A stretch of DNA of 64,000 nucleotides from Achromobacter insolitus (GTDB taxonomy: Bacteria; Pseudomonadota; Gammaproteobacteria; Burkholderiales; Burkholderiaceae_B). The stretch lies in NCBI RefSeq assembly GCF_002209555.1, contig NZ_NJIF01000004.1:186001-250000 (forward strand), written 5' to 3'. Below are positions 5,512 to 38,804 of the stretch, in pieces. Each line of letters starts with the position of its first letter. The stretch's first letter is position 1. Position numbers and translations under genes: made by a program. The notes below the pieces were generated by a model. It was not told the origin of the DNA. It ran no database searches and was given only the letters and a program-made list of their open reading frames with translations.

Positions 5512-6348
5512 ATGGCGTTCAACAGTCACGACCTACAAGCCGCGGGCGCGTCGAGTCCGCCCAAGCGCAGCGACCTGGTCGCCGAGGAAATCAAGCGGCT
5601 GATCACCGCCAAGAACCTGTTGCCGGGCGACAAGCTGCCGCGCGAGAGCGAACTGCAAAGCATGTTCTCGGTCAGCAAGAGCACGATGCGCGAAGCCCTC
5701 AAGTCGCTGGAGGTACAAGGGCTGGTGAAGGTCAGCACCGGCCCGGGCGGCGGCGGCACGGTGGTGGAGGTGCCGCTGGATCGCACCTTCCAGCTGATGC
5801 AGAACTACCTGTTCTTCAAGGAAGTGCGGATCGAGGACATCTACCAGGTGCGCAAGCTGCTGGAGCCCGAACTCGCGGCCAGTGCCGTGCCCTTCCTGAC
5901 GGACGCGCATTTCGCCGCGCTGGAACAGAACATCGCCTGCTGCGATCCGTCCGCCGAGCATGTCGAGGACCCGCTGGCGCAGCGCCAGGAGGAAATGAAT
6001 TTCCACGATATCTTCGCGGCGGCCTGCCCCAATCCGTTCCTGCGCTTCAGCTGCGAAATGACCAACGAAATGATCCGGCAGCTCACTGTGTTCGACAACG
6101 AGATGCCCTTGGCCGAGCAGCAGCGCTTTGGCAGCGCCAACACGGGCTTTCACCGCAAGATCCTGGCGGCGGCGCGCGAGCGCGACGTCGAGAAAGTGCG
6201 CGCCCTGATGAGCGAGCACATGCAGGACGCCATGCGCTCGGTCAAGCGCATGCACGGCAAGCTGGAAGGCAGGCTGATCCTGGACTCGGAGATGTCGCGG
6301 CGCAACGTCACGCGCAACGCGCGCCGCGGCAGCCGCAAAAAGGCCTGA
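5512..6348 (+). CDS. FadR-subfamily GntR transcriptional regulator
   Basis: A 278-residue regulator. Residues about 17-85 are the winged helix (LPRESELQSMFSVSKSTMREALKSLEVQGLV is the GntR signature), followed by an FCD-type ligand domain (DIYQVRKLLEPELAASAV, later histidine/aspartate positions such as NFHDIF and FHRKIL). The tail RNARRGSRKKA is strongly basic. A GGAGG site sits six bases before the ATG. It is divergent from the liv importer and probably represses it, with the transported compound or a catabolite as inducer. Confidence 0.9.
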   Translation: MAFNSHDLQAAGASSPPKRSDLVAEEIKRLITAKNLLPGDKLPRESELQSMFSVSKSTMREALKSLEVQGLVKVSTGPGGGGTVVEVPLDRTFQLMQNYLFFKEVRIEDIYQVRKLLEPELAASAVPFLTDAHFAALEQNIACCDPSAEHVEDPLAQRQEEMNFHDIFAAACPNPFLRFSCEMTNEMIRQLTVFDNEMPLAEQQRFGSANTGFHRKILAAARERDVEKVRALMSEHMQDAMRSVKRMHGKLEGRLILDSEMSRRNVTRNARRGSRKKA

Positions 6349-6389
6349 GGGCGCGGCGCCCTTGCGGCAGGATGGCGCGCCCGTCCGCC

Positions 6390-7376
6390 TCAATCCAGCT
6401 TGATGGCGTTGGCCTTGATCACCTCGCCCCAGCGCTGGCGGTCTTCCTGCACATAGGCATCGATATCGGCCTGGCCGCGCGGCGCCTGGATCACCAGGCC
6501 CAGCGGCTCGAAGCGGCCGCGAAAGGCCGGATCCTTCAACACCTTGTCCACCGCTTCCCGCAGACGCTGCGCCTCGGCCTGCGGCACGGCGCTGGGCACG
6601 GCCACGCCAAACCAGGTGGCCGCGCGGAATCCCGGGAAACCGCTTTCCGCCACGGTCGGCACATCGGGCAGCACGGCCAGCCGCTCGCTGGTCGTGACGG
6701 CCAGCGCCTTGATCTTGCGCTCCCGCACCAGCGGCAGCGAGGTGCTGACCACGTCCACCATCAGCTGCGTGTCGTTGCCCATCAACGAGGTCAGCGCGGG
6801 CGCGCTGCCGTTATACGGGATGTGCGCCACGTCCATGCCGGTGCGCGATTTCAACAGTTCGGTCGCCAACTGCAACGGATTGCCTATGCCCACCGAGGCA
6901 TAGTTCAGCTTGCCGGGCCGCGCCTTGGCATAGCCAACGAACTCGGCCAGCGTGGCGGCCGGCACCTCGTTGTTGGCAACCACCACCAGCGGCAGTTCGG
7001 CAACAATGCCGAGCACGCGGAAATCGCGCGCCGCGTCGTAGGCGATGCGCTGATAGAGCATGGGATTGAGCACCATGCTGGCGTTGCTGGCAAGCAAGAG
7101 CGTGTAGCCATCGGGCGCGGATCGCGCCACCTGCGTGGCGGCAATCATGGTGTTGGCCCCTGGCTTGTTCTCTACCACCACGGGTTGCCCAAGATCGCGC
7201 GACAGGCCTTCGGCCAGCATCCGCGACAACTGGTCGGCGGACCCGCCGGGGGTATAGGGCACGACCAGCTTGACGGGCTTGTCCGGAAAGGATGCCAGCG
7301 CGGCGCAAGGGCCGGCGAGCGCGAAGATCGCCGCGGCCGCGATGCGACGCAGCCTGTATGTCAGTCTGTATGTCAT
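6390..7376 (-). CDS. Bug/TctC-family periplasmic binding protein
   Basis: A 328-residue extracytoplasmic receptor with an N-terminal signal peptide ending ...AALA and the family opening FPDKPVKLVVPYTPGGSADQ. The TctC motifs LGQPVVVENKPGANT and AHIPYNGSAPALT are present. Such receptors bind carboxylates; very many in Bordetella and its relatives are orphans without TctA/TctB, as here. The first codons contain a 12-base tandem duplication that doubles Thr-Tyr-Arg-Leu (MTYRLTYRLRR). It is probably transcribed with the acyl-CoA ligase upstream of it, so a carboxylic acid ligand is likely. Confidence 0.9.
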   Translation of the reverse strand: MTYRLTYRLRRIAAAAIFALAGPCAALASFPDKPVKLVVPYTPGGSADQLSRMLAEGLSRDLGQPVVVENKPGANTMIAATQVARSAPDGYTLLLASNASMVLNPMLYQRIAYDAARDFRVLGIVAELPLVVVANNEVPAATLAEFVGYAKARPGKLNYASVGIGNPLQLATELLKSRTGMDVAHIPYNGSAPALTSLMGNDTQLMVDVVSTSLPLVRERKIKALAVTTSERLAVLPDVPTVAESGFPGFRAATWFGVAVPSAVPQAEAQRLREAVDKVLKDPAFRGRFEPLGLVIQAPRGQADIDAYVQEDRQRWGEVIKANAIKLD

Positions 7377-7431
7377 TGCTTGTCTCCCGAGCTATCCAGC
7401 TCTTGTAATCGCGGCATTGCGCCGCTGTCTG

Positions 7432-8934
7432 CTATACCTTGCGCTGGCGCCCCGCCCAGAATTCTGCGCGCAGCCTGCGCTTGGCAATCTTGCCGTTATC
7501 GTCGCGCGGCAACTCCGGGCACAGGCGCAGATCACGCGGGACCTTGTAGCGCGCGATCCGCTCCGCCAGCCATTGCGTCATTTCCAAGGGGTCGGGCGAC
7601 GCGCCCGCCGCGGGCTGCACCAGTGCCATCAGGCGCTCTCCGTACTCATCATCCGGAACGCCAAACACCGCGCAATCCGCAACGCCCGGGTACTGCATGA
7701 GTTGATGCTCGACCTCGGCGGGATAAATGTTCACGCCGCCCGAGATCACCAGGTCCGACTCCCGGTCGCACACATACAGATAGCCGTCCGCATCCAGATA
7801 GCCCAGGTCTCCCAGGCCGATCAGTCCGTCCTTCTCCACCGCGGCACGGGCCTCTGGGTTATTGCGGTACGTGAAATCCGCGTAGGCCGGCTGGCGCACG
7901 TGGATCCGTCCGACCTCGTCCGTCTCGCAGAGTGTGCCGTCTTCGCGATAGATCCTTACCTGCGCGCCGCCGATGGGGCGGCCGGCGCTGCCCGGACGGG
8001 CAAGCGCCTCCCGCGAATCGATGACCGTCACCATGCCGGCCTCGCTCGATGCATAGGTTTCATGCACGACGGGCCCCAGCCATTCGATCATGGCGCGCTT
8101 GATCTCGGGCGCGCAGGGCGCCCCGGTCGATGCGACAAAGCGCAGCGACGACAGGTCATGCGCAGCGCGCGTGGCGGCATCCAGTTTCAACATGCGTACA
8201 TACATGATCGGCACCAGGTAGACCGTGTCGATGCGGTGCGCTTCTATCAGGCGCAGGACCTCGACGGGATCGAACCTGTCGGTCAGGACAAAGGTTTCGC
8301 AGACCCGCAGGGCCACCTGCGCAAACACGCTGGGCGCGCTGTGGTAGATCGGCGCGGGCAGCAACGCGCGGCATCCCGGGCGCAGGCCATAGGCCGCCTC
8401 CACCACGGCCTCAACCTGCTCCAGATGCCTTGCCAGATGCTCCAGCGGGAATGGCGCGCGTACCACGCCCTTGGGCCTGCCCGTCGTGCCGGAGGTATAA
8501 GCCATGTGGCCGCGCGGCGCCACGCGCGGCCCGTCATAGGGAAGCTGGCGGTCGCGCCAGGCGTCGTAGTCCTCCGCTTCTGACCGCGCCGCGCCGGGGC
8601 CGGCCAGCAGCACAGGCAGCCCGGGAGGCAACGTGTCGCGCAGCGGCAGCCACAGGTCGGTATTGGCAATCAGCAATCGGGCGCCGCTGTCCTCGATCAG
8701 GAAGGCCACCTCCGCCGCGGTGAAATGCCAGTTGATCGGGCAGTAGTAGCAGCCCAGCCGTTTGCAGGCCTGGATGATTTCAAGATAGGGCAAACCGTTG
8801 CGCAGCAAGACGGCGATCACGTCGCCTTCCCGCACGCCGCGCGCGGCCAAGCCGGCGGCGACCTGCTCGCCGCGCGCGGTCAGCGCCGCGCCCGACAGAC
8901 TCTGGCCGCCCGCATGGATATTGCTGCCGGTCAT
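7432..8934 (-). CDS. AMP-forming acyl-CoA synthetase
   Basis: A 500-residue member of the ANL superfamily. Visible motifs: P-loop-like YTSGTTGRPKGV (A3), YASSEAG (A5), GDLGYLDADGYLYVCDRESDLVISGG (A7/A8) and the C-terminal lysine motif NGKIAKRRL (A10). It activates a carboxylic acid to its CoA thioester. The ATG at 8934 overlaps the stop of the SDR gene by four bases, so the two enzymes are made together. Context (carboxylate receptor, dienoyl-reductase-like SDR) suggests degradation of an unusual fatty or alicyclic acid. Confidence 0.88.
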   Translation of the reverse strand: MTGSNIHAGGQSLSGAALTARGEQVAAGLAARGVREGDVIAVLLRNGLPYLEIIQACKRLGCYYCPINWHFTAAEVAFLIEDSGARLLIANTDLWLPLRDTLPPGLPVLLAGPGAARSEAEDYDAWRDRQLPYDGPRVAPRGHMAYTSGTTGRPKGVVRAPFPLEHLARHLEQVEAVVEAAYGLRPGCRALLPAPIYHSAPSVFAQVALRVCETFVLTDRFDPVEVLRLIEAHRIDTVYLVPIMYVRMLKLDAATRAAHDLSSLRFVASTGAPCAPEIKRAMIEWLGPVVHETYASSEAGMVTVIDSREALARPGSAGRPIGGAQVRIYREDGTLCETDEVGRIHVRQPAYADFTYRNNPEARAAVEKDGLIGLGDLGYLDADGYLYVCDRESDLVISGGVNIYPAEVEHQLMQYPGVADCAVFGVPDDEYGERLMALVQPAAGASPDPLEMTQWLAERIARYKVPRDLRLCPELPRDDNGKIAKRRLRAEFWAGRQRKV

Positions 8935-9857
8935 GCGCCCCCCGTGCTGCGCAGCGCCTTGTCCTGCGCCGTGCGCGCTTCGATCGCCTGGCGCGCGGCG
9001 GCCCAGTCCGCATCGCTCCATTCGGCGTACTGCTTGAAATAGGCGCCGTTGGCCAGATAGTCGCCGCCATCCAGCGCAATGGTCTGACCGTTGATCCAGT
9101 CGTAGCCCGGACTCAGCAGAAAGGCCGCCAGTTCACCGATGTCGTGCCCGGTGCCCAGGCGCCGCATGGGGTTCTGCTGGGCCTGGGCATCTGCGCCTGT
9201 GTCCTTGGGCCGCAGCCGCGCGCTGGCCCCTTCGGTCGGAATCACGCCTGGCGCGATGGCATTCAGGCGTATGCCGTGGCGGCCCCATTCGATGGCCAGC
9301 GATTTGGTCATGGCGTCTATGCCGGCCTTGGACATTGCCGACGGGACCACAAAGGGCGAACCGGTCCAGACCCAGGTCACAACAATGGACAGCACCGCGC
9401 CGCTGCGGCCCTCCGCGATCCAGCGCTTGCCCACGGCCTGGGTGGTATAGAAGGTGCCGCGAAACACGGTATCGGCGATGGCATTGAAGCCGCGCGGCGA
9501 CAGTTTCTCCGTGGGGCTGATGAAGTTGCCCGCGGCATTGTTGATCAAGCCCGTCAGAGCCCCGCGATCCGTCCAGATGGCCTGGACTGCGGCGTCCACG
9601 GCCTCGGCGTCGCGGATATCCACCGCCTGCACGTGAACTTCGGCGCCATGGCGTGCGCGCAAGCCGGCGGCGGCCTCCTCCAGCACGGCCGCGCGGCGCC
9701 CCCACAGATGCAACGACGCGCCCAGGGACGCCAGCCGTTCGGCCATGGCATGGCCCAGGCCGGTGCCGCCGCCGGTGACGAGAATGCGCTGACCGCGGAA
9801 CAGGTCCGCGCGGAACATGGTTTCGGGGGGACTTGCGGTAAGCGGGGTTTGCGGCAT
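8931..9857 (-). CDS. SDR-family oxidoreductase, 2,4-dienoyl-CoA reductase-like
   Basis: A 308-residue short-chain dehydrogenase with NADP-binding motif TGGGTGLG, the NNAAGNF motif and a C-terminal DWINGQTIALDGG. The region TWVWTGSPFVVPSAMSKAG aligns by eye with mammalian and bacterial 2,4-dienoyl-CoA reductases, which lack the canonical YxxxK; the lysine is kept. A tryptophan occupies the place where human DECR1 has its active-site tyrosine. It probably reduces an unsaturated acyl-CoA made by the ligase encoded next to it. The ATG at 9857 is used; an internal Met (MFRADLF) is an alternative. Confidence 0.82.
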   Translation of the reverse strand: MPQTPLTASPPETMFRADLFRGQRILVTGGGTGLGHAMAERLASLGASLHLWGRRAAVLEEAAAGLRARHGAEVHVQAVDIRDAEAVDAAVQAIWTDRGALTGLINNAAGNFISPTEKLSPRGFNAIADTVFRGTFYTTQAVGKRWIAEGRSGAVLSIVVTWVWTGSPFVVPSAMSKAGIDAMTKSLAIEWGRHGIRLNAIAPGVIPTEGASARLRPKDTGADAQAQQNPMRRLGTGHDIGELAAFLLSPGYDWINGQTIALDGGDYLANGAYFKQYAEWSDADWAAARQAIEARTAQDKALRSTGGA

Positions 9858-9966
9858 GGCCTGGTCTCCTGTTTATTGACGATCAGAATATCAATGAGCG
9901 CCATTGCGCGACAATCCCGCGCTTTGCGTAAACTATGTTTCCTCACAGTCAACAATAAGACTGCCC

Positions 9967-10896
9967 ATGCCCACCCTGCCCGCGCTGGACCTCAACCTGA
10001 TCCAGCTGTTCGTCACCATCGTCGACGCCGGCACCTTGAGCGAGGCTGCGCTGCGCCACGGCGTCACCCGCTCGCACGTAAGCCGCAACCTGCAAAAGCT
10101 CGAGCGCGCCTTCGGTGCCCAGCTCATCCGGCGCAGCACGCGGCGTCTGGAACTGACGCAACAGGGTTCGGTGCTTTATGAGCACGGCGCGCGCATGGCG
10201 CGCGAGGTCGAGTCCGCCCGCCACGCCCTGCAGAAGCTCGGCTCCGAGCCTACGGGCCACGTCCGCCTGAGCATTCCTACCGGCCTGGGAGAACTGGACA
10301 CCTTGCGCCCGCTGCTGGTGAGCTTCGCCCTGCGGCATCCCTCGCTGACCTTGCGCGTGCTGTTCTCCAATCGGGTAAGCGACCTGATCTCGTCGGAAAT
10401 CGATGTGGCGTTGCGGGTAATGAGCACCCCGCCCCAAGACTACGTGGCGCGCGCGCTCGGCGATGTGAAATGGGTGCTTTGCGCGGCGCCGGCCTATCTG
10501 GCGCAGTTCGGCCAGCCGGCCCATCCGCGCGACCTCGTCCGCCTGCATTTCCTGGGCCCGCCAGACCCCAGGCCCCAAGTCACGCTGCGCCTGCGCCGCA
10601 AAGACCAGCAGCACGAGGCCAAGCTCGCGCCGCGGCTGCAATCGGAGTACTTCCCGTTTCTGGCGCAGGCCGCCCGCGCCGGCGCGGGCGTGGCGCTGCT
10701 GCCAGCCTATGTGGTGCATGAAGACATCGCCGCCGGACGGCTGACGCCGGTGCTGCCCGCCTATCAGGCCATGGGACCGGGCGAAAAGCTCTTCATCCTG
10801 ACCACGCCCACCCCCTATCCATCGACCGCCCAGCGCGCGGTGGTCGATTTCCTGCGCACCGAAGTGCCCGCGCTGTTGCGCGGCCTTCTTGAGTAG
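9967..10896 (+). CDS. LysR-family transcriptional regulator
   Basis: A 309-residue regulator: N-terminal winged helix (LDLNLIQLFVTIVDAGTLSEAA, SHVSRNLQKLERAFG) followed by a LysR substrate-binding domain. The start at 9967 puts the helix-turn-helix at the usual distance from the N-terminus; the frame stays open upstream to 9904. It is divergent from the SDR/acyl-CoA ligase/TctC genes with a gap of about 109 bases, the classical arrangement for a LysR activator of the neighbouring operon. Confidence 0.88.
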   Translation: MPTLPALDLNLIQLFVTIVDAGTLSEAALRHGVTRSHVSRNLQKLERAFGAQLIRRSTRRLELTQQGSVLYEHGARMAREVESARHALQKLGSEPTGHVRLSIPTGLGELDTLRPLLVSFALRHPSLTLRVLFSNRVSDLISSEIDVALRVMSTPPQDYVARALGDVKWVLCAAPAYLAQFGQPAHPRDLVRLHFLGPPDPRPQVTLRLRRKDQQHEAKLAPRLQSEYFPFLAQAARAGAGVALLPAYVVHEDIAAGRLTPVLPAYQAMGPGEKLFILTTPTPYPSTAQRAVVDFLRTEVPALLRGLLE

Positions 10897-11039
10897 ATTT
10901 CCCGCTCGGCCGCAACATCGGCGTAGGACTTTCTTGATAAAAGAGGCTTGCGAGTCGCGCGCGCCTCGGCCAGAGTATCGGGTAAGGCCGACGGCCGCCC
11001 GCCACATTACCGGACGGGAACTTTGACGGCCCGGCCAAG

Positions 11040-11058
11040 TCTTATATAAGATATAAGA
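11040..11058. promoter_or_regulatory. AT-rich palindromic operator upstream of acnA
   Basis: TCTTATATAAGA (11040-11051) is a perfect 12-base palindrome, and its right half-site ATATAAGA is repeated directly at 11051-11058. It lies about 100 bases before the acnA ATG in GC-rich surroundings, where a promoter and operator are expected. A GntR-type regulator is a plausible binder; this is inference. Confidence 0.5.
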
Positions 11059-11155
11059 CATACGGCCGCACACGCGCGAGTCTCACATAGAATGACAAAT
11101 GCGCAAAAACGCCAGAAAATGCCGGCTTCAGCCGGGCAAAACCACGGAGTCCATC

Positions 11156-13861
<2,706 letters not shown>

Positions 13862-19885: not shown

Positions 19886-21280
19886 TCAAAGCGCCTCGGC
19901 GATGCCGTCGGCCGGTTCGCCCTGCCCCGCCCCCAACTGCAGCTTGCGCATTTTTTCCCACAGCACCTTGCGGCTGATGCCCAAAGTGTGCGCGGTATCC
20001 TGGCGGCGCCAGCCATTGGCGTCCAGCGCCGCGAGCACGCGCTCGCGCTCGGCGCGCTCGGCGTCGGTGAATACGGCAGGTTCGGCGCGTGCGGCGGCGG
20101 CCGCCCCCGCCACGCGCAGCGGCTCGGCCAGCTGGTCGAAGATGCGTTCGATGCGCGGCCGATCCCAAGCCTGGAATTGCCGCCGCGCAATCGCGACGCG
20201 TTCCGCCACGTTGGAGAGTTCTCGCACATTGCCCTCGTAGCGCGTGCGTGAGACGCGCTCCAGCAGCCACGGGGGCAGCTCGTCCTCCACGCCCTGGCTA
20301 TGAAGCAAAGAGCGAAAAATCGCCGCCTTCTCTTCCGGCCCGCGCTGCTCCAGGTTGGGAATGCGCAGCTCGATGACCGCCAGCCGGTAGTAGAGGTCCG
20401 CGCGGAATTCGTCCTGCCCCACGAGCGCCCGCAAATCCTTGTTGGTGGCAGCGACCAGACGGAAGTCCACCGGCACCTCCACCGTCGAACCCAGCCGCGT
20501 CACCGTGTTCTGTTCCAGCACGCGCAACAGCTTGACCTGCTGATAGAGCGGAAGATCGCCGATTTCGTCCAGGAACAGCGTGCCGCCGCTGGCCTGCTCG
20601 AAGTAACCCTTGTGGGCCCCGATCGCGCCCGTGAAGGCGCCCTTGGCATGGCCGAAGAAGTGCGCCTCGAAGAGGCCTTCGGGGATAGCCCCGCAGTTGA
20701 CCGCCACGAAGGGGCCGTCGGACCAGGCGGCGCGATCATGCAGCAGGCGCGCGATGCGCTCCTTGCCCACGCCGGTTTCGCCGTGGATCAGCACGTTGCT
20801 GCGGCAATCGGCATACATTTCCGCTTCGGCCAGCAGGTCTTGCATGGTCGTGGACACGGCGATCAGCGGCTGCTCGCGGCGGGGCGTGGCACGATTGAGC
20901 TGATTCAGCGTGCCCAGCAGTTGGTACAGCAGCTTGCGCAGGTCGGCCGGAGTGAAGGCCAAGGGCAGCGTATAGGAGTACTCGGGCGGGTAGTAGCGCG
21001 GGTCGCGTCCACGCGCTTCCGCGGCCACCCAGATGACCGGCATGCCTTGCGCCGCCAGCCAGTCATAGCCGCTGAACCGCTTGTCTCCCATCACCGATAC
21101 CGACACCAGGGCGACCGCCGGCCGCGCCAGGTCGCGGGGCGGCGGAAACGCGGTGCCGGCGTCCGCCCGCAGCAGCGACACGTCCATGCCCGCCAGGCAG
21201 CGCTCGGCGCGGCTGGCAATGTCGGAGGTGCCTTCCCAGACGTACACGTCGAACTCTTCGCGCGCGAAATTCTGGCTCAT
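19886..21280 (-). CDS. Sigma-54-dependent enhancer-binding protein
   Basis: A 464-residue NtrC-class regulator. Residues about 1-125 are a divergent receiver-like domain ([10 protein letters not shown]...[13 protein letters not shown]) without a clear phosphoacceptor aspartate pattern. The AAA+ domain has Walker A GETGVGKE, the sigma-54 contact loop GAFTGA and [11 protein letters not shown]-terminal Fis-type helix-turn-helix ([18 protein letters not shown]) binds enhancers. It lies directly after tadG on the same strand (gap about 50 bases), so it is likely the dedicated regulator of pilus or adhesin genes. Start 21280 is preferred over 21292; neither has a strong ribosome site. Confidence 0.9.
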
Positions 21281-21329
21281 CGCTGGGACCATGCCGGAAA
21301 AAGAAGGATACGGGTCACGGAACTCATCA

Positions 21330-33409: not shown

Positions 33410-33625
33410 TCAGCCACCGGCGGGTGGTGTGGTGCCCCCGCCGGAGGTGCCGGTCTTGGCGTTGTCAAGCTTGGTGCCAAGCTCCTCGAACATGCCTTTG
33501 AGCGAACCGGTAAACGCGCCCACCGCGACAATGAGGGCTACCGCCACCATTCCCGCGATCAGCCCGTACTCCAGTGCGGTGATGCCATCTTCGTCATTCC
33601 AGAACTGCGCAAGCGTTGCTTTCAT
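33410..33625 (-). CDS. flp: Flp-type prepilin
   Basis: A 71-residue type IVb prepilin. The leader MKATLAQFWNDEDG is cut after Gly14, leaving ITALEYGLIAGMVAVALIVAVG with the Glu5/Tyr6 pair of Flp pilins. The C-terminus is a short Gly/Thr/Pro tail (SGGGTTPPAGG). GGAG lies before the ATG. It is the first gene and major subunit of the Tad locus. No convincing -24/-12 promoter is visible directly upstream. Confidence 0.95.
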   Translation of the reverse strand: MKATLAQFWNDEDGITALEYGLIAGMVAVALIVAVGAFTGSLKGMFEELGTKLDNAKTGTSGGGTTPPAGG

Positions 33626-33747
33626 GTCGAGCTCCATGGGTCTCGATTGATCACCGGGGCCGGTTTTCATAACGCCGGGCCAGCCCCCTAAAGCCTGGAA
33701 CTGCTCGCAAGCCGCCATCATTCTCGCGGCCCGCGTCCAGGGTCCAA

Positions 33748-34575
33748 CTAGGGCCCTGGCGTGGCTCTGGGCAATCTGTCCGTAGCCATGCCAGGCGCCG
33801 ATTCAATGATCGAGTCGATGCGCTGCGCCGTGCGCGCGCGAAAGCGTTTCGAGGCGCGCTGCAAGTGCCAGCGCATAAGCAACAAGATGACGGCCGACAG
33901 TGCGAACGCGATATAGGGCAGCATGGCGCCGCCGATATGCACGCCCATGGCATCGTTGGTCGTCGTGCAGACGACCGCGCCGGCCGCGGCGCCCGTGTAA
34001 TGCATACCGCATACCGCAACGGCCATCAGGATGGCCGCGCCGATACGTTGGCGTTCATTCTGGATGTTGAAGGCGAGCCACAGCGCCGCCGTGGCCGCGA
34101 TGACGGCGATCAGCACCGACAAAATCACCAGCGGCAGGTTCCAGAGCAATACCGCCGGCATGCGCGCAGCGCTCATGCCGACATAATGCATGGACGCCAC
34201 GCCAAACCCCGCGGCGCAGCCTCCGACCAGGCAGCGCAAGAAAGTAAAACGGTCGCGGCCGACATACCAGAAAGCCCATCCGGAAAATCCGGCGGCAACC
34301 ACGAAGCTGAGTATCGTCAGGCCAGCTTGGTAACCAACTTCAAAAGGCAGGTTCTGCGCCAGCATGCCGATGAAATGCATGCTCCAGATACCGACGCCGC
34401 CCATCGCCATCGCGCCAATGACGATATAGCCGACGCGGATTTCGCCATCCTGGGTTTCCGCGCGGATACCCGCCGCCGCCAGCAGGGCGACATACGAGCC
34501 CAACGCAGCAATCAAGAAAGACAGCGCCACCAGGCTGCTGTTGAAAGAGAGCGGAACGACGTCGCCCGGACTCAT
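33748..34575 (-). CDS. Stand-alone MHYT-domain membrane sensor
   Basis: A 275-residue integral membrane protein with about seven hydrophobic helices and the three MHYT repeats (SMHFIGM, SMHYVGM, GMHYTGA) thought to bind copper and sense O2, CO or NO. Most MHYT domains are fused to GGDEF, EAL or kinase domains; here only a short basic cytoplasmic tail follows, so any output would need a partner protein. Start at 34575 with GGGAG upstream. It is divergent from the TpsB gene across an AT-rich region of 480 bases. Confidence 0.88.
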   Translation of the reverse strand: MSPGDVVPLSFNSSLVALSFLIAALGSYVALLAAAGIRAETQDGEIRVGYIVIGAMAMGGVGIWSMHFIGMLAQNLPFEVGYQAGLTILSFVVAAGFSGWAFWYVGRDRFTFLRCLVGGCAAGFGVASMHYVGMSAARMPAVLLWNLPLVILSVLIAVIAATAALWLAFNIQNERQRIGAAILMAVAVCGMHYTGAAAGAVVCTTTNDAMGVHIGGAMLPYIAFALSAVILLLMRWHLQRASKRFRARTAQRIDSIIESAPGMATDRLPRATPGP

Positions 34576-34697: not shown

Positions 34698-34707
34698 GAT
34701 ACGTATC
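34698..34707. promoter_or_regulatory. TACGTA-centred palindrome GATACGTATC
   Basis: A perfect 10-base palindrome about 240 bases upstream of the TpsB -24/-12 element and about 120 bases upstream of the MHYT start. It shares the TACGTA core with the repeat array upstream of the lipoprotein gene, so it may be an upstream activator site. Confidence 0.4.
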
Positions 34708-34864
34708 TTTAGTTTATATATTGCCAAATCATACACATCAGGGTTTTCACTGAATTTCGCGATATTGCGACATAAGATGTGTAACAAACACTCCTAAGTT
34801 TTCGAAAACATTAATAAAACCACCTAATTAGCGCTTATCTTTGCGCGAAAACATATTACGCAAC

Positions 34865-34877
34865 AATCAAAAATTTC
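34865..34877 (+). promoter_or_regulatory. IHF-like site upstream of the TpsB gene
   Basis: AATCAAAAATTTC matches the IHF consensus WATCAANNNNTTR at all but the last base. It lies 70 bases before the -24 element, the usual place for a DNA bend between enhancer and sigma-54 promoter. ATTACGCAAC lies directly beside it at 34855-34864. Confidence 0.5.
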
Positions 34878-34946
34878 GAAATAATGTAAATCCACCAGGT
34901 TTATGAGGGCAAAATCTGAAATGAATTGTCATTCAGCAGGAAATAC

Positions 34947-34962
34947 TGGCACCATATACGCA
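34947..34962 (+). promoter_or_regulatory. Candidate sigma-54 promoter of the TpsB gene
   Basis: CTGGCACCATATACGCA: the -24 box TGGCAC is perfect, GG and GC are exactly ten bases apart, and the -12 box is ACGCA instead of TTGCA. Transcription would begin near 34973, giving a leader of about 83 bases. Confidence 0.5.
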
Positions 34963-35055
34963 CCTGGAAATGCAACCTTTTCTTAACAGTGTTGCGACCC
35001 CTTTCCATTGGATACTCGACCGATATCGGGTATCCGCACAGAAGCGCCAGCGGAA

Positions 35056-36783
35056 ATGAGAGACAAAAAAAGCAAGAGATGCATATCCCCGGCGGGTTCG
35101 ATTTACCTCGCCCTCTTTTGCGCACTGGCAGCCGGTTCCCAAGTTCAGGCGGAAGGCCCTCTACGGGGCAATCCGGTGGATGCCATGCCCAGGCTGGAGC
35201 GTCCGCCCTCTGCTACGCAACCGCCGCCCTATGTCCAGACCGCCACGCCGGAACAACTCGCCTTGCAAGCCCGGCTGGCGCAGCGCATCGTGCCGCGCAA
35301 TTTCGATGTCAGCGGCGTGCGGGCGATTCCTTTCGAGGAAGTGTCGGGACTGCTCAGCCCGCTGGCAGGCAAGGAAATCAGCCTGGGCGAACTGGTCCAG
35401 GAAGTCGACAAGATCACGCAGCTCTACCGTGACAAGGGCTTTCCCTTGTCCTTCGCACTGCTGCAGAACCAGACGTTCGCCAATGGCTTGGTCGTGGTGA
35501 CCGTGGTCGAGGGCTATATCGGCAACGTGCGGATCGAAGGCGATATCGGCAATGCGCGGGACAGGCTTGAAACCCTGGCCGCACCCATGCAGGAAGAAAG
35601 GCCGCTCAAACAGGCCACGCTAGAGCGCCAACTGAATCTGATGCGAACCGTGCCGGGGGTGAAGTTCACGCCCAGCCTGGACCTGCCTCGCCGCGCGGAC
35701 GGCGCCACCGAGTTGGTACTGGCCGCCAGCCGCCAGCCCGTCAGCCTGACCGGCGGCATCGCGGACTTGGGCACCGGCATGCAGCCCATCGTGAACATGG
35801 CGACCAACAGCCTCACGCCCCTGGGCGAGCAAGTAAAGCTGACCGCCTCGGTACCTTTCAATACCGATGACGTGAAGTATGTGTCCGGAGAAATCCGCGT
35901 GCCCATAGGGGCGGATGGTCTGGCGGTGAAGATCGACGGTTATCACTACGATGCCCGTCCGCAGGACGATGCCATCGAGATGCTGGGCTTCGAGCGACGA
36001 GTGAAGAACGACCGTATCGGCGTTGGCGTGAGCTACCCGTTCCTCTTGAACAACACCCGCTCGCTGACCGGGACCCTGGGCGTCTATGCCGCCAATTCCA
36101 AGGACCGGTACGAAGCCCGCAACACCGACCGGTGGCTGCAGCAGGATGCGCAAGTACGCGCCGCCACGGCCGAAATGCGCTACATCCAGGTGTCGGAAAC
36201 CAAAGCGACGGACGTCACACTGAGCGTGGCCAAGGGTTTCGACGCGGCGGGCGCGAAAAAAGATATCTCGACCAACTACGGCTACTCCGCCACTCCGCTG
36301 CTGGACCTGGATTTCACCCGCTACAACCTGAACGCAAAGCAGACATTCGTGCTGCCCGCACAGATCGGCCTGGTTTTCTCGGGCGCGGCGCAATACTCCA
36401 GCAATATCCTGCCGTCTTCCGAACAGGTCTCGTACGGCAGCTGGCGCTACGCCATGGGCTATCCCCAAGGCGAACAAAGCGGCGACAAAGGCGTTGGCGT
36501 CTCGGCGGAAATCAACCGCCGCTTCGGCGTGGGCTGGGAATACCTGTCCAGTGTCCAGCCCTACGCCCTGGTCGACTACGCCCGCACTTGGTACAACAAC
36601 AAGGATCTGCAAACCCTGAACCAGCGCCACCTGTCTTCCGTGGCGCTGGGTTTGCGCTTCACCGACGACAAATACTATCTGTTCGACTTCAACGTGGCCA
36701 AACCCGTGGGATCGGCCACCGTCAACGACGACCGCAACGTGCGCTTCAACGCCAATTATTCGTTGTTCTATGACGCGTTCTAG
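35056..36783 (+). CDS. TpsB / ShlB-FhaC-HecB-type two-partner secretion transporter (orphan)
   Basis: A 575-residue outer-membrane protein: signal peptide ending QVQA, a Pro-rich linker, two POTRA domains (NFDVSGVRAIPFEEV; VVVTVVEGYIGNVRIEG) and a C-terminal 16-strand barrel ending FYDAF with terminal phenylalanine. TpsB proteins export large TpsA adhesins or haemolysins, but no TpsA gene lies nearby. The usual VRGY/F motif of loop 6 reads YAMGYPQGEQSGD, with Met467 where the motif has its conserved arginine. Start at 35056 (ATG after AGCGGAA); a TTG at 35008 is in frame. A strong terminator follows. Confidence 0.87.
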   Translation: MRDKKSKRCISPAGSIYLALFCALAAGSQVQAEGPLRGNPVDAMPRLERPPSATQPPPYVQTATPEQLALQARLAQRIVPRNFDVSGVRAIPFEEVSGLLSPLAGKEISLGELVQEVDKITQLYRDKGFPLSFALLQNQTFANGLVVVTVVEGYIGNVRIEGDIGNARDRLETLAAPMQEERPLKQATLERQLNLMRTVPGVKFTPSLDLPRRADGATELVLAASRQPVSLTGGIADLGTGMQPIVNMATNSLTPLGEQVKLTASVPFNTDDVKYVSGEIRVPIGADGLAVKIDGYHYDARPQDDAIEMLGFERRVKNDRIGVGVSYPFLLNNTRSLTGTLGVYAANSKDRYEARNTDRWLQQDAQVRAATAEMRYIQVSETKATDVTLSVAKGFDAAGAKKDISTNYGYSATPLLDLDFTRYNLNAKQTFVLPAQIGLVFSGAAQYSSNILPSSEQVSYGSWRYAMGYPQGEQSGDKGVGVSAEINRRFGVGWEYLSSVQPYALVDYARTWYNNKDLQTLNQRHLSSVALGLRFTDDKYYLFDFNVAKPVGSATVNDDRNVRFNANYSLFYDAF

Positions 36784-36815
36784 CCGCGCCGGATGATGCG
36801 CCCGGCAGACAGATC

Positions 36816-36842
36816 AACGCCCGTTACGACGGGCGTTTTTCT
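36816..36842 (+). terminator. Intrinsic terminator after the TpsB gene
   Basis: AACGCCCGT, TACG loop and ACGGGCGTT followed by a T-run. It separates the TpsB gene from the downstream lipoprotein gene. Confidence 0.9.
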
Positions 36843-36857
36843 TGCACGGGTGCCCCG

Positions 36858-36890
36858 ACGTTACGTAACGTCCACCGTAACGTAACGTGG
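36858..36890. promoter_or_regulatory. GTAACGT repeat array, possible enhancer (UAS)
   Basis: ACGTTACGTAACGT (36858-36871) is a perfect 14-base palindrome. It is followed by CCGTAACGTAACGTGG, so the heptamer GTAACGT occurs three times on this strand and once inverted within 33 bases. It lies about 170-200 bases upstream of a -24/-12 promoter match, the usual distance for binding of a sigma-54 activator. The gap 36784-37130 holds no gene. Confidence 0.55.
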
Positions 36891-36980
36891 GAATGACGGT
36901 CATTCGTAACATTCGCAGGCTGCGCGCGATCGCAAATGTGCGGTTTTTTCACATCTGAGGAAAACCCTTATTTTTGTTGA

Positions 36981-36993
36981 TAAGGCATTGATA
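36981..36993 (-). promoter_or_regulatory. IHF site upstream of the Gly-rich lipoprotein gene
   Basis: On the minus strand TATCAATGCCTTA matches the IHF consensus WATCAANNNNTTR at every fixed position. It lies between the GTAACGT array and the -24/-12 element, 65 bases from the latter, inside an AT-rich stretch. Confidence 0.55.
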
Positions 36994-37057
36994 ATAAAGA
37001 AATTCAAATCACCAAAATTCTGTGGAATTATCGTTTTGAACAAGGCTTGAAAATTCT

Positions 37058-37073
37058 TGGCATGGTTTGTGCA
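37058..37073 (+). promoter_or_regulatory. Candidate sigma-54 promoter of the Gly-rich lipoprotein gene
   Basis: TGGCATGGTTTGTGCA agrees with TGGCACGNNNNTTGCW at ten of twelve positions, including GG and GC ten bases apart. The predicted start near 37083 leaves a 48-base leader with AGGAG before the ATG. Confidence 0.65.
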
Positions 37074-37130
37074 TGGAAGGGCGTATCGGGTTGTTTCCAC
37101 GCCTGAGTCTTCCAACAACAGGAGTACGCC

Positions 37131-38804
37131 ATGCAAACCCATTCCGAAGCGCGCAGCCTGCAGCGCATCCTGACTGCCACCGTAATGGCCACCGCCCTGG
37201 TGAGCGCCTTGGCCGCTTGCGGCGGCGGTGGCGGCGGAAAGAAAACCGCCGGCCTGCCGGGCACGGACATTCCTACGAACCCTGGCGGCGGCGGCCTCGA
37301 TCCTGGCGGCGGCCTCAACCCTGGTGGCGGCACCAATCCTGGCGGCGGCACCAATCCCGGTGGCGGTACCAATCCCGGTGGCGGCACCGATCCTGGCGGT
37401 GGCACCGATCCGGGAACCCCGCCGCGCGTGGTCGGCCTGCTCGAAACAACGCTGGGCAATACCGGCGCGGCAGTGGACAACACCCTGCCCCTGAATCTCG
37501 ACTCGACACTGGGCGGCGTGGGCAAGGCGCTGGACCCCACGATCAAGCCGGTAGCCGATACGGTGGTCGGCCTGACGCAGCAGATCGGCGCCACCACGGG
37601 ATTGGGACAACCCACCGACGGCGTCGTCAAGCAGGTGGGCGGCCTGGTCAGTGACCTGGGCACCTCGGTCAAGGGCTCGGGCTTGCCAGGAGGATTGGGC
37701 GCAGGCGTGGGCGGCCTGGTGGATGGCCTGGGCAAAACGGTCGCCAGCACGGGCGGCCTGCTGCACGCGGACGCCAACAACCCTAATCCCCTGACAACCG
37801 TGCTCGGCAATGCGACCGGTGCCGTGGGCGCCTTGACCGGCGCATTGTCGGGCCAGGGCGGACTCTTGCAGCCCATTACCCAGGTAGTCGGCGGCGTGAC
37901 CGGAGGCGCACTGAGCGGTCCCACCACGCCGCTGCTCGAACCCGCGCTGGGCAACGTCGGCAAGACAGTGGACAACGTACTGCCGCTGGGCCTGCAACCC
38001 GTGCTCGCGGGCGTGGGTGGCGCGCTGGATCCCACCGCGAGTCCGCTGGCCGGCAAGGTCACGGGCCTGACACAACAAGTGGGCGATACCACCAAACTGG
38101 GCGCACCCGTCGCCGGCCTGTTGAGCAGCCTGGGCGGCACGGTCACCAATCTGGGCGGCGCGTTGCCGGGCGGCACGCCGGGCTTGAACGGCGTGCTGCA
38201 GGGCCTGGGCGGCGCCGTCGCCAGCGCGGGCGGCCTGCTGCATGCCACGCCGGGCAACACCAATCCCCTGGGCTCGACGCTGGCCAATGCCACCGGCGCG
38301 GTTGCCTCGTTGACGGGCGGCCTGGGCCTGGGCGGCGTGACCGGCGGTCTGACCGGCGGCGGCAACGGCGCGGGCGGCCTGCTGGCCCCGGTGACGGGCC
38401 TGCTCGGAGGCGTGACCGGCGCAGTGGGGGGCTCGACCGGCGGCAACAGCGGCGCGGGCGGTTTGTTGGCGCCGGTTACGGGGCTCTTGGGCGGCGTGAC
38501 CGGCGCCGTAGGAGGCACGGCAGGTGGCGCAGCGGGCGGCGGATTGCTGGGCGGACTGGTAGGCGGGGTGAGTGTCGCCGCCAACGCTTCGGCGGGCGGA
38601 GCTGCCGGCGGATCCGCCGGTGCGCCTGCCAGCTCGGGGGGATCGGGGGCAGGCGCTGCGGCCAATGGCGGCCTGCTCGGCGGGCTGCTGGGCGGCGTGA
38701 CCGGCAGCCTGACAGGCGGCGCGGCCGCGGGCGGCTCTGCCGGTGGAACCGCGAACGGCGGACTGCTGGGCGGATTGCTTGGCGGGCTGGCCGGCAAGAA
38801 GTGA
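37131..38804 (+). CDS. Low-complexity Gly-rich repeat lipoprotein
   Basis: A 557-residue predicted surface lipoprotein: signal peptide with lipobox LAAC (Cys30) followed by six glycines. Next come hexapeptide repeats N/D-P-G-G-G-T/L (residues about 50-92). A region of two homologous units follows, with period 165 residues starting at Leu103 (LLETTLGN) and Leu268 (LLEPALGN), each containing VDNxLPLxL, GLTQQxG and ASxGGLLHA. The C-terminus is Gly/Ala/Leu-rich with 28-residue repeats (GAGGLLAPVTGLLGGVTGAVGG) and NGGLLGGLLGG units. It resembles proteins annotated as collagen-like in Bordetella, but strict Gly-X-Y triplets are not seen. AGGAG precedes the ATG. It is probably an adhesin or matrix component. 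Confidence 0.75.
   Translation: MQTHSEARSLQRILTATVMATALVSALAACGGGGGGKKTAGLPGTDIPTNPGGGGLDPGGGLNPGGGTNPGGGTNPGGGTNPGGGTDPGGGTDPGTPPRVVGLLETTLGNTGAAVDNTLPLNLDSTLGGVGKALDPTIKPVADTVVGLTQQIGATTGLGQPTDGVVKQVGGLVSDLGTSVKGSGLPGGLGAGVGGLVDGLGKTVASTGGLLHADANNPNPLTTVLGNATGAVGALTGALSGQGGLLQPITQVVGGVTGGALSGPTTPLLEPALGNVGKTVDNVLPLGLQPVLAGVGGALDPTASPLAGKVTGLTQQVGDTTKLGAPVAGLLSSLGGTVTNLGGALPGGTPGLNGVLQGLGGAVASAGGLLHATPGNTNPLGSTLANATGAVASLTGGLGLGGVTGGLTGGGNGAGGLLAPVTGLLGGVTGAVGGSTGGNSGAGGLLAPVTGLLGGVTGAVGGTAGGAAGGGLLGGLVGGVSVAANASAGGAAGGSAGAPASSGGSGAGAAANGGLLGGLLGGVTGSLTGGAAAGGSAGGTANGGLLGGLLGGLAGKK
37299..37406 (+). repeat. Six 18-bp tandem repeats in the lipoprotein gene
   Basis: Six in-frame units of the form RAYCCYGGYGGCGGYMYC (for example AATCCTGGCGGCGGCACC), preceded by a 21-base variant. 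Copy number could change by slippage without breaking the frame, altering stalk length. Confidence 0.85.

Follow-up and report, generated by a model that had tools for sequence, protein, structure and literature searches.

The gene for a glycine-rich, collagen-like lipoprotein in a 64,000-nucleotide stretch of Achromobacter insolitus DNA (hereafter the window) appears to be transcribed from a sigma-54 promoter, which a GtrR-like enhancer-binding protein (EBP) of the tad pilus cluster would activate from an upstream array with the help of integration host factor (IHF), while the neighboring gene for a TpsB-type outer-membrane transporter would be transcribed separately. We hold this reading, taken as a whole, to be probable, with good confidence. 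It draws on conservation, on spacing, on co-occurrence and, in another genus, on a second target that is unlinked, all of which we observe. The window is part of a 6.4-Mb genome (G000) whose named close relatives are Achromobacter, and the features on which the reading turns are these:

36858 to 36911, no strand assigned: enhancer-like array upstream of the lipoprotein gene, with ACGTTACGTAACGTCCACCGTAACGTAACGTG from 36858
36981 to 36993, minus strand: IHF-type site TATCAATGCCTTA, no mismatches, left end 76 bp before the -24 element
37057 to 37073, plus strand: predicted sigma-54 -24/-12 element TTGGCATGGTTTGTGCA of the lipoprotein gene
37083 to 37090, plus strand: predicted transcription start region GTATCGGG, start placed by convention
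37131 to 38804, plus strand: gene for the Gly-rich lipoprotein, with a Collagen_mid domain (PF15984) and a lipobox seen by eye in the translation; proposed target gene
19886 to 21292, minus strand: gene for a GtrR-like sigma-54 EBP, AAA+ with GAFTGA and a Fis-type helix-turn-helix, located where the tad genes end; proposed activator

A conserved promoter layout upstream of the lipoprotein gene

In the mechanism that we propose, the CGTTACG/CGTAACG array, 150-200 bp upstream of the promoter, would be the binding site of the GtrR-like EBP, whose gene stands at the end of the tad/Flp cluster. IHF would bend the intervening DNA, and RpoN polymerase at 37057-37073 would be opened by the AAA+ activator, with a predicted start near 37083, such that the collagen-like surface protein would be made under the pilus cluster's own regulator. 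TpsB would have a probable sigma-70-type promoter and a terminator of its own. EBP binding, sigma-54 dependence and the start site are what we infer from the sequences. The sigma-54/IHF/EBP mechanism is of a known kind: sigma-54 promoters of the NtrC/NifA class have an enhancer 100-200 bp upstream, IHF between, and a -24/-12 element. The lipoprotein promoter differs from that class in its binding site and in the branch to which its putative regulator belongs.

The half-sites of the array read GTTAC at 36860 and GTAAC at 36865, 36877, 36882 and 36906, with centers at -195, -190, -178, -173 and -149 relative to the start of the -24 element. To examine conservation we used 52 TpsB loci, which came down to 38 distinct ones (35 Achromobacter-type and 3 Bordetella) once the partial locus L052 and 13 duplicates were dropped. 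A GG-N10-GC element (TGGCA-N8-GC) lies upstream of the lipoprotein gene in all 38, and in all 38 the motif GTA[TC]CGGG follows 9-10 nt after the GC of the -12 element. The array proves to be longer than the first-pass annotation had it, the fifth half-site, CGTAACATTC (GTAAC at 36906-36910), being kept in 34 of these loci.

A wider set of 88 loci, 86 of them with a lipoprotein match, gave 78 upstream regions after removal of those with no callable lipobox and ATG, those near an edge and those with an identical upstream (L137 is among the missing). The sigma-54 score is at least 11/14 in 73 of the 78, compared with 0.8% of shuffles, and in 71 of the 73 a distance of 47-71 bp separates the end of the element from the called ATG; in the other two it is 93-95 bp. 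All 73 promoters have at least two half-site 6-mers within 230 bp (shuffles, 9.5%); the CGTTACG/CGTAACG half-sites mostly lie 150-200 bp upstream of the promoter, with center spacings mainly of 5, 12 and 24 bp, a count that is dominated by Achromobacter. IHF sites with at most one mismatch occur within 110 bp in 58 of the 73 (shuffles, 26%), on the minus strand in 53 of those 58, and perfect sites in 32 of the 73 (shuffles, 1.8%). The IHF site mostly stands 74-77 bp before the sigma-54 element, that is, by sequence, between array and promoter. Could the -24/-12 element be fortuitous nonetheless, with another sigma factor in use? The pattern alone is near its chance frequency in one window, but the element together with its distance to the conserved start region is kept without exception in the 38 distinct loci, and the element recurs across genera in the wider set, so we think this highly improbable. 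The sigma-54/IHF/enhancer promoter that the first-pass annotation proposed for this gene is supported as a prediction.

The transporter gene is probably transcribed on its own

The first-pass annotation also gave TpsB the same sigma-54 promoter layout and placed transporter and lipoprotein in one regulon. The features that bear on this claim are:

34698 to 34707, no strand assigned: palindrome GATACGTATC upstream of TpsB, found in 6 of 38 loci
34865 to 34877, plus strand: IHF-like site AATCAAAAATTTC upstream of TpsB, one mismatch to WATCARNNNNTTR
34926 to 34955, plus strand: TTGTCA-N18-CACCAT, its second hexamer preceded by TGG; the likelier TpsB promoter (sigma-70, extended -10)
34946 to 34962, plus strand: candidate TpsB -24/-12 element CTGGCACCATATACGCA, judged not to be a sigma-54 promoter
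35056 to 36783, plus strand: TpsB/ShlB-type outer-membrane transporter gene, start ATG at 35056
36816 to 36845, plus strand: intrinsic terminator 3' of TpsB

Every element that had been named is indeed present in the window, in both upstream regions, and the IHF-to-promoter distances are 65 and 70 bp, as stated. The motif TGGCAYNNNNNNNGCA occurs 5 times in the window where 2.7 are expected, and 17 of 100 shuffles reach 5; GTTACGTAAC with at most two mismatches, which covers GATACGTATC, occurs 9 times against 6.5 expected, with as many in 19 of 100 shuffles. IHF-like sites with at most one mismatch number 32, compared with 20.75 in shuffles (1 of 100 shuffles reaches 32), and are so common in the window that one near a gene says little. 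Because its single elements are near chance frequency or common in the window, the TpsB trio of palindrome, IHF site and -24/-12 element could be a product of chance. Its sigma-54-like site scores 11/14, the same as ten other sites in the window. Of the 32, the only perfect IHF site belongs to the lipoprotein trio, whose palindrome is 14 bp long and whose sigma-54 site, at 12/14, ties with two other sites for the window's top score.

Conservation settles the question of the two trios. Checked in relatives, the three elements are kept on the lipoprotein side and are not kept on the TpsB side, so that a sigma-54 reading stands for the lipoprotein gene alone. At the aligned place upstream of TpsB, 7 of the 38 loci have GG-N10-GC, 19 have an N9 spacing, 9 have neither and 3 have no TGGCA. 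Of the 38, only the window and L048 have an IHF site with at most one mismatch at that position, and one has at least two half-site 6-mers. Two observations are consistent with the reading in which TpsB and the lipoprotein gene of this genome make up a single regulon under twin sigma-54 promoters: CTGGCACCATATACGCA keeps the -24 element, and the window and five near relatives, 6 of the 7 GG-N10-GC loci, have scores of 10-11. Against it stand the counts just given and the GATACGTATC palindrome, which is limited to the window and five of its close relatives (TpsB 95-96% identical). The TpsB upstream regions outside the genus also speak against it, as 1 of 34 scores at least 11 and none does so with at least two half-sites as well. 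We therefore consider twin promoters improbable. The proposal of a single regulon is likewise not supported in this genome, where TpsB precedes the lipoprotein gene and has a terminator at its end. A single TpsB-lipoprotein transcript was considered and is unlikely, given the terminator after TpsB and a hairpin with a T-run in the gap between TpsB and the array in 30 of 38 loci.

What is conserved upstream of TpsB is instead TTGTCATT, then about 10 bases, then CTGGCAMCAT. Reading TTGTCA as the -35 element and TGG-CAMCAT as an extended -10, 17-18 bp apart, fits this conserved block, and a stricter consensus scan returned no sigma-70 site at the place of the TpsB promoter. TpsB is probably transcribed separately, from a sigma-70-type promoter. 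A transporter-lipoprotein regulon is plausible in other families (f7, f31 and f34), where TpsB lies downstream on the same strand.

The tad-cluster EBP as the likely activator

The EBP encoded in the tad cluster matches PF00158 (216.7 bits) and PF02954 (42.3 bits), has a GAFTGA motif read in its translation, and over residues 8-454, near its full length, matches PDB 7vbs (E 6e-147). We searched the 268 genomes of the family for this EBP (E <= 1e-100) and for the array by a strict pattern: the array is in 66 and the EBP in 88, with both in 63, array only in 3, EBP only in 25 and neither in 177 (Fisher 1e-36 for co-occurrence, on a tally made by hand in which relatedness is ignored). The three genomes with an array and no EBP are G027, which is 78% complete, G177 and G245; the matches in the last two were rejected as true arrays and judged to be chance, as L133 and L134 hold no array with a promoter. 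Among the 25 genomes with the EBP and no strict array, 18 were fetched, and all 18 have array-type 6-mers and a sigma-54 score of at least 11 before a lipoprotein gene.

As an exact match, the 12-mer CGTTACGTAACG occurs at one place, just behind TpsB, in each of 8 EBP-bearing Achromobacter genomes searched, and is absent from the 4 searched that lack the EBP. The genome of the window has nine strong EBP genes. Three array-less Achromobacter genomes were compared, and for eight of the nine genes at least one of the three contains a relative of 70% identity or more. The tad EBP is the sole one of the nine without such a relative (best 42%).

A motif scan across the genome, as the first-pass annotation had suggested, gave 19 near-matches; 15 have no sigma-54 score of at least 11 at 60-260 bp and the other four are the lipoprotein site. 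One half-site with a sigma-54 element at the right distance was found in four matches at three places (the lipoprotein gene, L176 and L177), compared with six matches in a backward-read control. L176 and L177 were considered as further targets and are taken as chance, because each has one half-site and the control gave six. Elsewhere in the genome (L087, G000:C22:304000-323000, at 6229-13414), a second rpoN gene has as neighbors a hybrid PAS/GAF histidine kinase and two genes for EBPs, one of them with a receiver domain. This rpoN2 cluster was examined as a home for cognate sites and rejected: it has one near-match (9643-9652), inside open frames and no better than chance.

The proposed activator in other genera and families

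Eight genomes of genus g31 (L126-L132 and L136) have a second array, away from the EBP, with ATGGCAYANNTTTTGCW about 170-210 bp behind it. The gene that follows was read in five of them (L126-L129 and L136), where the products are alike at the start (...NKxYRTVWS...) and ESPR-like, and both proteins scanned by Pfam (L126 and L127) have ESPR and YadA head and stalk domains. This second, unlinked array and predicted promoter thus seem to precede a trimeric autotransporter gene.

A search of 399 genomes of the order turned up the EBP in 12, nine of them outside the family, and these nine were all fetched. Six of the nine (L167, L168 and L170-L173) have half-sites and a GG-N10-GC element scoring at least 10 before the lipoprotein gene, on the TpsB strand, with a score of at least 11 in four. 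In the seven out-of-family loci that have both genes the lipoprotein gene lies upstream of TpsB, an order that may make TpsB part of the sigma-54 transcript in these loci.

Together, co-occurrence and the second, unlinked target lend support to the earlier guess that the EBP at 19886 drives the lipoprotein promoter, and we consider activation of this promoter by the EBP at 19886-21292 likely. It is also conceivable that the lipoprotein promoter is a sigma-54 promoter on whose array a different EBP, or a factor that is not an EBP, acts. Any of the nine strong EBPs might serve in that role, and the two EBP-bearing regions of family f49 (L174 and L175) show no array, nor a lipoprotein gene or TpsB, in the stretch fetched; but it is the tad EBP alone of the nine that is absent from the three array-less genomes tested, and EBP-bearing g31 genomes have the second array at an unlinked site, and we rate this alternative as rather unlikely.

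The f49 regions are also among several points that weigh against assigning the promoter to sigma-54 and to the tad EBP. The EBP and the array usually lie within about 17 kb of each other, so that a single deletion may explain why some Achromobacter lack both, and the unlinked case is limited to one genus, g31. In L169 half-sites are present, but the 150 bp next to the lipoprotein start contain no sigma-54 element. In EBP-bearing genomes of other genera CGTTACGTAACG is found in 6 of 9 and missing from G053, G093 and G103, and its backward-read control is also present in some genomes; one 12-mer alone therefore proves little. In the wider set, 5 of the 78 lipoprotein upstream regions score below 11, nine loci (L137-L145) were picked for carrying the array while the others were picked by TpsB or EBP, and the counts ignore relatedness, many of the 78 being Achromobacter. 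Finally, the genome has two rpoN genes, either of which might serve.

The surrounding locus

Two further genes of the window lie on the other side of TpsB:

33410 to 33625, minus strand: Flp pilin gene of the tad cluster
33748 to 34575, minus strand: MHYT-domain gene

Between flp and the EBP gene, on the minus strand, are relatives of RcpC/CpaB, secretin, T2SSE and T2SSF, along with Tad and tetratricopeptide repeat (TPR) proteins. By eye, nothing obvious as a sigma-54 promoter for flp was seen in 33560-33800, and an Rfam scan gave sub-threshold matches only. The interval between the MHYT gene and TpsB contains an AT-rich non-coding block at 34700-34760 (GATACGT...ATACACATCAGGGTTT), conserved and partly kept in Bordetella, which is perhaps a divergent promoter.

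TpsB consists of a POTRA domain and a ShlB-type barrel (PF08479 and PF03865 by Pfam), and a second, distant homologue of 26% identity is encoded in the same genome (G000:C11:366095-367720). By Pfam, neither neighbor of TpsB, the Collagen_mid lipoprotein downstream or the MHYT protein upstream, is a TpsA with a TPS domain. The contigs of L033, L034, L037, L038, L040-L043 and L046 stop about 2 kb or less from the end of TpsB, in or near the repetitive lipoprotein gene, which is therefore probably often broken in assemblies.

Relation to known systems and implications

The closest comparison that we have is with Burkholderia cenocepacia. There GtrR is BCAL1536 (PMC12838280, PMC9684580), its gene is included in the putative Flp operon BCAL1525-1537 (PMC2753556), and the collagen-like lipoproteins BCAL1523/BCAL1524 adjoin the Flp genes (PMC10224339). 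The pilus and lipoprotein genes are co-induced upon contact with host-derived vesicles (PMC7970998), and BCAL1524, a component of outer-membrane vesicles, promotes autoaggregation (PMC10303873). Like the window, the BCAL1520-1537 region combines an EBP in the Flp cluster with Collagen_mid lipoproteins and with an outer-membrane gene, BCAL1522, of similar size, and the window EBP likewise sits in a Flp/tad cluster with a collagen-like lipoprotein, as expected of a GtrR-type locus. We call it GtrR-like, and the two loci alike, on the strength of locus order, family and literature. The gene order differs, in that the lipoprotein comes first in B. cenocepacia, followed by the outer-membrane gene, whereas in the window TpsB comes first and is followed by a terminator. 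Moreover, GtrR is called a global regulator in the B. cenocepacia sources, whereas the genome of the window has CGTTACGTAACG at a single place. Control of berA by BerB (BCAM1342) and RpoN in B. cenocepacia is likewise a case of an EBP and RpoN acting on a surface/biofilm function, but its locus and target are different, and no Flp or collagen-like gene is named in the part of that source used here (PMC9684580). In the literature searched, itself covered in part and with the main 2017 GtrR paper outside its scope, we found no description of the regulator-target pairing, of the binding grammar or of the autotransporter target.

Why would a transporter and a lipoprotein be kept side by side? TpsB and the lipoprotein gene lie on the same strand within 5 kb, in either order, in 86 of 88 loci (duplicates included), and the other two loci have neither. 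We tentatively speculate, with some doubt, that the TpsB-type pore exports the collagen-like lipoprotein, in a two-partner fashion with a lipoprotein as substrate in place of a TpsA, and that the EBP acts as a dedicated adhesion switch, which in one genus would also have recruited a trimeric autotransporter, and that in the family of the window the transporter has left the sigma-54 regulon.

The layout described here amounts to a candidate DNA grammar for a GtrR-like regulator of Flp/Tad clusters, in which a CGTTACG/CGTAACG array is combined with an IHF site about 76 bp before a -24/-12 element, and which is found in several families of one order. It corrects the proposal that the neighboring transporter shares the promoter, and it predicts a direct target, the collagen-like surface protein. 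If this is true, a regulator described as global in B. cenocepacia may in Achromobacter have a single main strict site.

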